In this document: piece after piece, positions 46,520-49,695 of the stretch | Layout: each line of letters starts with the position of its first letter | Numbering within the stretch: position 1 is the stretch's first letter | Source of the DNA: Gammaproteobacteria bacterium | Lineage (GTDB): Bacteria; Pseudomonadota; Gammaproteobacteria; 21-64-14 | Reading direction: 5' to 3' | NCBI GenBank assembly: GCA_027013145.1 | Contig: JALUXX010000046.1 | Location: forward strand, 1 to 49,695 | Length of the DNA: 49,695 nt | Position numbers and translations under genes: made by a program | The notes under the pieces: model-generated | Databases searched by the model: none | The model's input: only the letters and a program-made list of their open reading frames with translations | What the model was told of the DNA's origin: nothing

Positions 46520-47104
46520 ATGGAGCACCTCGCCCCCTGGCTCGCCCACATCCCCCGGCCACTGGCCGCCCTCGTGCCCAGCCTGCTCCTGCTCGTGGCC
46601 GGCGCCGCGCTGATCTCGCTCATCCTGCGCAGCCTGGAGCGCGCCCTGCGCCGCACCCACCGCCACGTCCACGTCTCCGAAGACACGACGCGGACCGTGC
46701 GCAAGATTACCGGCATCACCCTGTGGACCGTGCTGCTGCTGATCCTCCTGCGCTTCTGGGGGATCGACGTCGACGGGCTCTGGACCACCCTGGCCAGCGT
46801 CCTCGCCGTCGTGGGCGTGGGCCTGCTCGCCGTGTGGACCATGGTGAGCAACATCACCGCCACCCTGTTCATCTGGATCTGGCGCCCCTACACCATCGGC
46901 CAGCACATCGAACTGCTGCCCGACGGGATCAAGGGCCGCGCCGTCGACCGCAGCCTCATGTTCACGACCGTCGAGGAGGCCGACGGCAGCACCCTGATGA
47001 TCCCAAACAACCTCTTCTTCCAGCGCATCATCCGCCGTGCCCCCCACGGATCCGCCGCGCCCCCCGCCCCGCCCGAACCCGAGGCCGGCCCGAAAACTAT
47101 TTAA
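46520..47104 (+). CDS. Short MscS-family mechanosensitive channel
   Basis: This is a 194-residue protein with about three transmembrane helices (15-45, 65-85, 88-115). The pore-lining/beta region follows: LAVVGVGLLAVWTMVSNITATLFIWIWRPYTIGQHIELL, ending LMIPNNLFFQRIIRR. It stops after the beta domain with a Pro/Ala tail, lacking the C-terminal alpha/beta domain of E. coli MscS (286 aa). The start codon has no strong ribosome site. It would relieve turgor on hypo-osmotic shock, which complements the NAGGN osmolyte operon. Confidence 0.85.
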   Translation: MEHLAPWLAHIPRPLAALVPSLLLLVAGAALISLILRSLERALRRTHRHVHVSEDTTRTVRKITGITLWTVLLLILLRFWGIDVDGLWTTLASVLAVVGVGLLAVWTMVSNITATLFIWIWRPYTIGQHIELLPDGIKGRAVDRSLMFTTVEEADGSTLMIPNNLFFQRIIRRAPHGSAAPPAPPEPEAGPKTI

Positions 47105-47131
47105 AATACATGGCATTTAACCCATAAGGGA

Positions 47132-47187
47132 GCCAAAGGGGACAGATTTATTTGAGCATCTGCTCAAATAAATCTGTCCCCTTTGGC
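47132..47187. repeat. Perfect 27-bp inverted repeat
   Basis: The arms 47132-47158 and 47161-47187 are perfect complements around a 2-nt centre (TC). Each begins GCCAAAGGGGACAGATTTAT. This forms a cruciform-capable palindrome of 56 bp. The GGGGACAGATTTATTT text resembles repeats seen around REP-associated transposases. It is markedly AT-richer than the surrounding genes and lies between the MscS-like gene and typA. Confidence 0.9.
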
Positions 47188-47211
47188 AGTCCCCTTTGGC
47201 AGTCCCCTTTG
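47178..47211. repeat. 13-bp tandem repeat, 2.6 copies
   Basis: CCCCTTTGGCAGT occurs at 47178-47190 and 47191-47203, followed by a partial CCCCTTTG to 47211. The first copy overlaps the right arm of the 27-bp palindrome, suggesting slippage copying of its end. Confidence 0.85.
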
Positions 47212-47249
47212 CGGAACGCGTGGCCGGTGCGCGCGTAACGAAATATCCC

Positions 47250-47255
47250 TATAAT
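47250..47255 (+). promoter_or_regulatory. -10 element of typA
   Basis: TATAAT at 47250-47255 matches the consensus exactly. No clear -35 stands 16-18 bp upstream. The start point near 47262 would give a leader of about 26 nt before the GTG at 47288. Confidence 0.5.
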
Positions 47256-47287
47256 GGCCGGCTTTGCGGACATCGCGGACGGCCACC

Positions 47288-49105
<1,818 letters not shown>

Positions 49106-49604
49106 GCGGCGCGGGGACGCCCCCGACCGCGCGCAGCGCCCCGCCCGCTACGTCTGCGCACTGCCCGGCCGCCCGCTTGGAACCCGGGCCAAGAGCCCCT
49201 ATACCATCCACCGCGCTCTACGGACTCAGGTACTGATGCCCAAGGCGTAGCCACGTGCACTACAACGCAGCCGCCTCGCTTGACAGCCCTCCATCGGGGA
49301 CCTCCAAAATGACCACGAGCCAGCGCGCGTCGGCACCAAGACCGGCAACGCACCGCGCCGGAAGCATAAGCAGAAACGACCGCAAGCCACAGGAAGCCCG
49401 GCTGCGCGGGGGATATAAGAAGAATCAGAATGCGGGAGGCATCATGAGCCGGTGTGCATGCGCGTCTTTCGACCGTTTCGATTCCCGGGGGATTTCGGAG
49501 ACAGTGTACCAATTGATTCCAATTCAAGACCACCTACGCCCCCACCACCGGCACCCTCACCTACCAACGGGGACAGATTGAAGTTTCCCCGGTTTAACGG
49601 ACCA
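49106..49604. other. Non-coding tail leading to an insertion element
   Basis: About 500 bp without a convincing gene. The left half is GC-rich; from about 49380 base composition falls. GGGGGATTTCGGAGACAGTGTACCAATTG (part at 49489-49515) resembles dispersed repeats near REP-type transposases. At 49514-49592 a stop-bounded plus-strand stretch reads FQFKTTYAPTTGTLTYQ, which could be a remnant of an Rhs-like protein, but is too short to call. Confidence 0.4.
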
Positions 49605-49695
49605 TTAGCCGGCAGCCAGGTTGGCCGCCTCGAATGCCAGCGGAGCCATCTGCCCAACATGGGAATGACGCCGCTGACGGTTATAGAACACCTCG
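49571..49695 (-). mobile_element. IS3-family insertion sequence, one end only
   Basis: It includes the transposase C-terminus and about 34 bp of end sequence. On the minus strand the outer end reads AAACCGGGGAAACTTCAATC then TGTCCCC. The junction near 49571 is inferred from where this element-like text stops. The rest of the element lies beyond the window. Confidence 0.5.
49605..49695 (-). CDS. IS3-family transposase (OrfB), C-terminal 29 residues
   Basis: The minus strand reads EVFYNRQRRHSHVGQMAPLA then FEAANLAAG and TAA (49605-49607). The xxFYNxxRRHS...PxxFE ending is the classic C-terminus of IS3-family DDE transposases of the OrfB/rve type. The gene is cut by the window edge, so completeness cannot be judged. 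Confidence 0.85.
   Translation of the reverse strand, partial: EVFYNRQRRHSHVGQMAPLAFEAANLAAG

Follow-up and report, generated by a model that had tools for sequence, protein, structure and literature searches.

A perfect palindrome upstream of typA, a member of a dispersed family of short, probably mobile DNA hairpins

Described Y1 transposase systems and the palindrome upstream of typA

TIRtrons, as presented in passages of Di Nocera et al. (2013; PMC3733652), carry Y1 transposases between TIRs with a common GGGGWSAS; the TIR families are moderately abundant and dispersed, and some are self-complementary and occur in dimers or clusters. The same passages describe large REP clusters in which units are repeated in tandem together with segments of flanking DNA. 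In the parts of Quentin et al. (2018; PMC6006769) drawn on here, 20 of 26 published TIRYTs fall in TnpAY1 subclass 2.1, characterized by NHVH, W[EQ], YIELNP or Y[IV]HLNP, a C-terminal HTH-like domain and a median length of 238 aa; no REP-like sequences were found at its genes. Subclass 2.3 has YVDLNP, NHYH and a median of 325 aa, and the REP-bearing subclasses 2.2, 2.4 and 2.5 have DHLH/YIHYNP, YIxNNP or YI[VI]ANP (PMC6006769, same parts). REP and REPIN sequences with RAYTs are named in passages of PMC3116915 and PMC2817692. The TIRYT/TIRtron kind is known but little studied.

We analysed a window of 49,695 nucleotides, contig JALUXX010000046.1 of a Gammaproteobacteria bacterium, with the following features:

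47132..47158, + strand: left arm, consisting of GCCAAA, the family arm GGGGACAGATTTATTT (47138-47153) and GAGCA; the 16-mer lies at 29 genome sites
47161..47187, - strand: right arm, perfect reverse complement of the left arm, with the family arm at 47166-47181
47176..47211, no strand: 13-mers GTCCCCTTTGGCA in tandem, two of them complete and a third represented by 10 bases
49569..49578, + strand: outer 10 arm bases GGGGACAGAT, presumably of a further family arm, cut by the IS end
49579..49695, - strand: end of an element that we take to be IS3-like, the contig stopping inside it; last residues EVFYNRQRRHSHVGQMAPLAFEAANLAAG

The palindrome (47132-47187) consists of two perfect 27-bp arms, 100% complementary, around a 2-nt spacer, 56 bp in total. 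Copies of the 13-mer occupy 47176-47188 and 47189-47201, and a third matches for its first 10 bases (47202-47211), giving about 2.8 copies. Each combines flank with the final 6 bases at the outer end of the arm, and since the first falls within the right arm, the repeated part is the palindrome's end. A sequence-only reading had described a 27-bp perfect inverted repeat whose end is re-copied in tandem, and this description holds, its count of 2.6 units becoming about 2.8. Folded as single-stranded DNA, 47110-47230 reaches -38.2 kcal/mol; dinucleotide shuffles average -16.0 (sd 2.8), and none of the 200 folded equally well (z = -8.0). At up to 3 mismatches, GGGGACAGATTTATTT has three matches in the window against 0.11 expected: the two palindrome arms and 49569.

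The palindrome separates a short MscS-like gene (46520-47101, PF00924) from typA (47264-49105, TIGR01394 above its cut-off), both on the + strand. The match of the MscS-like gene covers no more than positions 34-168 of the 286-position MscS model, and the gene ends 30 bases upstream of the palindrome; its C-terminal part may therefore be missing. This position, upstream of a TATAATGGCCGGC that the window shares with a same-genus genome, would suit a host regulatory hairpin, one that either terminates transcription after the MscS-like gene or controls typA. We regard this as highly improbable: the same arms stand at many unrelated places of the genome, and the same-genus genome (G001) has a typA upstream region without the hairpin. 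No terminator-like or promoter-like site was found in 47000-47400, and Rfam gave no match to the palindrome region. There is still room for a secondary influence of the hairpin on either gene.

The arm family, its transposase and its distribution

With up to 2 mismatches allowed, GGGGACAGATTTATTT is present at 29 sites, of which 19 are exact and 10 differ in one base, in the 3,284,417 bases and 67 contigs of the window's genome, and its reversed control at none in the same 3.28 Mb. Many of these sites are palindromic pairs with differing loops and flanks, and the palindrome upstream of typA belongs to this dispersed family of short, probably mobile DNA hairpins. The genome holds five Y1_Tnp genes. 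One lies on contig 11 in a 779-bp unit (G000:C11:208867-209645) with exact inverted arms at both ends (C11:208867-208882 and C11:209630-209645); the ORF inside, of 233-241 aa, has its stop codon within the left arm. The protein scores 53.7 bits with PF01797 (cut-off 23) and shows the HUH motif NHVH, the Y motif YVDLNP and WE; its sister proteins have YIELNP/YVELNP, and no C-terminal HTH domain was found in it at E<=0.001. The earlier reading had proposed a genome-wide search for the arm and for a Y1 gene flanked by the same text, and both were found: with 29 sites and inverted copies of GGGGACAGATTTATTT bracketing the contig 11 gene, the palindrome is not a single copy without a related transposase. 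A second, sister TIR family, GGGGACAGTATACC, has arms on both sides of its own Y1 gene at C16:247260 (L034). The degenerate pattern GGGGACAGTWTACYTWW, which covers the GGGGACAGTATACC family and other near variants, matches 43 sites when one mismatch is allowed, 22 of them exactly, and its reversed control matches none. No such arms were found within about 800 bases of the remaining three Y1 genes.

The window palindrome fits the TIRYT/TIRtron kind, not the canonical REP. Its arm head GGGGACAG agrees with GGGGWSAS. As in the TIRtrons of the passages cited (PMC3733652), a Y1 gene with HUH and tyrosine motifs lies between inverted repeats fitting that motif, and the TIRs form a dispersed family, here of 29 sites against none for the reversed control; the locus-specific mirrored flank treated below is, in contrast, undescribed in those passages. 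The contig 11 protein resembles subclass 2.1, as defined in the parts of PMC6006769 used here, in NHVH, WE and a length near the 238-aa median, and differs from it in a YVDLNP that recalls subclass 2.3 and in giving no HTH match at E<=0.001. The earlier reading had likened the palindrome to REP elements acted on by single-strand transposases, and of this the Y1 link stands. We give next to no credit to a canonical REP or REPIN moved by a RAYT: the transposase superfamily is the same, and dispersed hairpins likewise accompany a cognate Y1 gene, but the foot AAAGGGGACAG lacks the GT[AG]G tetranucleotide (GTAG/GTGG), there are 29 sites and not hundreds, and the whole 56-bp palindrome corresponds to two TIR arms. 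Moreover, NHVH and YVDLNP are not among the motifs that those parts of PMC6006769 give for subclasses 2.2, 2.4 and 2.5, which bear REPs, and the NCBIfam model for REP-associated tyrosine transposases (NF047646) scores 75.8 bits, under its cut-off of 80. The REP label was dropped because the foot fails the defining GT[AG]G. An IS200/IS605 insertion sequence was also rejected (NF033573, 27 bits, cut-off 55). A full-text literature search retrieved no paper with GGGGACAGATTTATTT or its complement, and 12-mers of the arm or its complement matched seven papers, none of them on bacterial repeats by title.

In a cross-genome scan, whose counts refer to the matches listed and are no census, the full palindrome was found in at least 117 stretches, with records from Pseudomonas, Stutzerimonas, other Gammaproteobacteria, Nitrospirae, SAR324, Desulfobulbus, other Deltaproteobacteria, Planctomycetota, Aerophobetes and others. 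One full palindrome used as a query against plasmids, phages and E. coli genomes gave no match at E<=0.01. The same type of palindrome, with tandem flank copies on both sides, is seen in a class relative (L050, G084:C6, 1440-1640) that stands outside these counts. As a raw count without a control set, the longest ORF near the hairpin encodes a polymorphic-toxin/immunity domain (Rhs, filamentous hemagglutinin/DUF637, Tle1-like, EndoU, PoNi) in 11 of 40 proteins from Pseudomonas-group loci, the 40 being drawn from the 41 listed for L055-L171 with L146 left out.

All 24 palindrome-bearing genomes tried, among the matches listed, have Y1_Tnp, against 5 of 14 controls. Among 30 Y1 loci from palindrome-bearing genomes, exact inverted arms surround the gene in three (L184, L186, L199), L185 has arms on both sides of the ORF, and several others have different GGGG-headed TIRs or none. 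In a tree of 18 Y1 ORFs (those passing the motif filter among 34 loci, L030 excluded), six labelled with the GGGGACAGATTTATTT arm and four with other TIRs stand apart (94/94; in 95% of bootstrap trees; equally low in 4 of 500 label shuffles); the labels of L182, which has an exact arm on one side only, and L185 were assigned by hand. Among 93 relatives, exact arms occur in four, the window's genome included. Y1 proteins matching the contig 11 transposase at E<=1e-10 occur in 44 of the 93, 41 of these without exact arms, and G081 has three arms yet no Y1 match at that threshold; both observations argue against a tight link between arm and transposase. Outside the window's genome, G009 has the best match, at 64% identity; it is among the four exact-arm genomes, though no inverted arm pair was found there around the Y1 gene on a short contig.

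Copied flanks and insertion at the arms

Tandem copies were scored where the 7 bases just outside the GGGG recur within the preceding 70 bases, using distinct arms of L001-L029 and L055-L171. An arm was eligible if its outer 7-mer held two or more letters other than A; 93 of 307 did not, so that some visible tandem cases, such as L135, go uncounted. Among the matches listed, 33 of the 214 eligible arms have copied flank (8 of 19 in the window's genome), compared with 1.1% of random positions taken from these loci (338 of 30000) and 20 of 1341 with A-rich ends; hits number 42, against a mean of 1.5 with shuffled flanks. The units hold locus-specific bases, and 37 of the 42 reach at least one base into the stem. 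The stem length copied ranges over 0-9 bases, with four cases at 16, and 10 of 42 stop 6-7 bases into the arm. This spread speaks against a single break point, and a single cleavage point deduced from the tandem copies was dropped on that account. The extra tandem units of the window's palindrome resemble scars left by local miscopying of DNA at the hairpin.

Flanks are also mirrored across some hairpins. Among the matches listed, 25 of 117 palindromes have a mirrored flank of at least 8 bases, against a mean of 1.1 with mispaired flanks (largest value 6 in 2000 shuffles). Requiring 40 nt or more of flank on either side and excluding duplicates left 112 stretches, five of them with two palindromes; L061, L093, L108, L142 and L153 gave none. 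By group, again among the matches listed, a mirrored flank of at least 7 bases is found in 11 of 15 palindromes of one Nitrospirae genome (0.4 expected), and the remaining genomes give 17 of 54 (1.3 expected). The Pseudomonas group, with 3 of 43 (1.2 expected; 569 of 5000 shuffles as high), is at chance level, so mirroring is not a general property. These group counts omit L064, L095, L151, L167 and L168, and Bowmanella L141 was placed in the Pseudomonas group by hand. The window copy mirrors 6 bases outside the GGGG, three of them the consensus A, and thus carries little weight taken alone.

Our preferred reading, to which we assign a probability of roughly 0.62, is that the palindrome is a non-autonomous two-TIR hairpin of a TIRYT-kind Y1/HUH element, moved in trans and then reshaped by slippage and template switching. 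The transposase would recognize GGGGACAG-headed arms on single-stranded DNA and move or copy arm-loop-arm hairpins in trans. Once in place, a hairpin may stall DNA synthesis; a polymerase stalled at its foot could drop off and re-anneal upstream, yielding tandem units, and such slippage would re-copy some flank with a few stem bases, as in the window's 13-mers. A template switch onto the other arm would keep the arms perfect and, in some lineages, mirror the flank outward. Template switching at quasi-palindromes, with their perfection, is described for E. coli in passages of PMC7202029, and a role for it in the origin and upkeep of hairpins has been put forward (PMC8794818, in part). Since no clean empty site was found, we infer the order of events. 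The earlier reading had taken perfect arms to imply recent arrival or active maintenance; arrival finds no filled/empty pair behind it, and upkeep of the arms by template switching comes nearer to the second.

It is possible, at a clearly lower probability, that the hairpin prefers to insert into existing palindromes or loops, the mirrored flank being the target's own arms and the tandem units the outcome of repeated insertion or transposase nicking. Four family palindromes of Chromatiales MAG-239 (G113; L064, L151, L167, L168) are indeed nested in TAGGAGC...GCTCCTA palindromes, three of which occur there without insert, and a nick might leave tandem copies that end 6-7 bases into the arm, as 10 of 42 do. 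In L167 and L168, however, the mirrored stretch exceeds what the three insert-free palindromes have in common; repeated insertion of ends alone would not bring the locus-specific flank held by the tandem units, and break points scattered over 0-9 bases do not suit it either. Insertion into existing palindromes explains some copies, and it and slippage with template switching are not exclusive.

The arms are themselves a target. The element at the window's end is called IS3-like on the strength of a motif, and its 29-aa tail has no Pfam or NCBIfam match. Ten ends of this one element were found in the window's genome, eight abutting arm sequence and two not. Seven of the eight have their junction after SGGGACAGAT and one after AAATAAATC on the other strand, which a 3-bp GAT duplication would fit. 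The window's junction (49569-49578) is one of the eight, and the same arm position is used in seven further places. These lie on G000 contigs C2, C4, C16, C47, C48, C57 and C58, and several contigs end inside the IS. IS insertion into REP sequences is known, and in the passages of PMC1525189 that treat it an IS likewise sits repeatedly at one position of a repeated palindrome. What differs here is the target, a GGGGACAG-type TIR arm, and the inserted element, presumed to be IS3-like.

Flank comparisons, gene joints and significance

No excision, insertion or clean empty site was seen in any flank comparison made. The same-genus genome has an orthologous place for four of seven joined flank pieces (typA, C16, C9, C53), and none was found there for those from the MscS-like gene, C58 and C9:33.7k. 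In the four, the 38 to 236 bases next to the hairpin show no similarity, and an empty site cannot be read; this loss of similarity near the hairpin, in 4 of 4 readable comparisons without a base rate, is only a lead. For the L135 flank, compared with 99 genomes, the best relative diverges at the start of the tandem units and offers no empty site. Against 398 genomes, the flanks of L113 and L137 have relatives with continuous genes where the arms adjoin shortened pieces. At L113 (2401-3600) the hairpin has a shortened gene on either side, and several relatives agree on the continuation of both; at L137 (4401-5700) a gene piece breaks off next to a single arm nearby, with five relatives in agreement (L246, L255-L258). 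To judge from these alignments, the pieces would speak of rearrangement, not of a simple empty site. At C16:203357, the hairpin comes after the first 30-odd codons of the first frame of the IS3-like element; because contigs end inside the IS, no intact copy of that frame was found among the loci examined.

A bolder proposal, which we consider doubtful, is that TIRYT hairpins act as local copying engines and joints: stalled replication, perhaps with transposase nicks, would repeatedly copy and mirror host DNA and mark joints of truncated genes, notably in Pseudomonas toxin-immunity regions. Of the results on this element, those on copying scars and on joints most deserve to be followed further.

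An anonymous palindrome is now tied to a transposase group, and the 16-base signature GGGGACAGATTTATTT finds its family in several phyla. With many natural hairpins that bear copying scars, it becomes testable whether replication errors or the transposase shape the repeats, and the IS that reuses one arm position provides a second ready test of palindrome-targeted insertion. Were the bolder proposal true, this Y1 transposase family would be a driver of gene-piece shuffling in bacteria.
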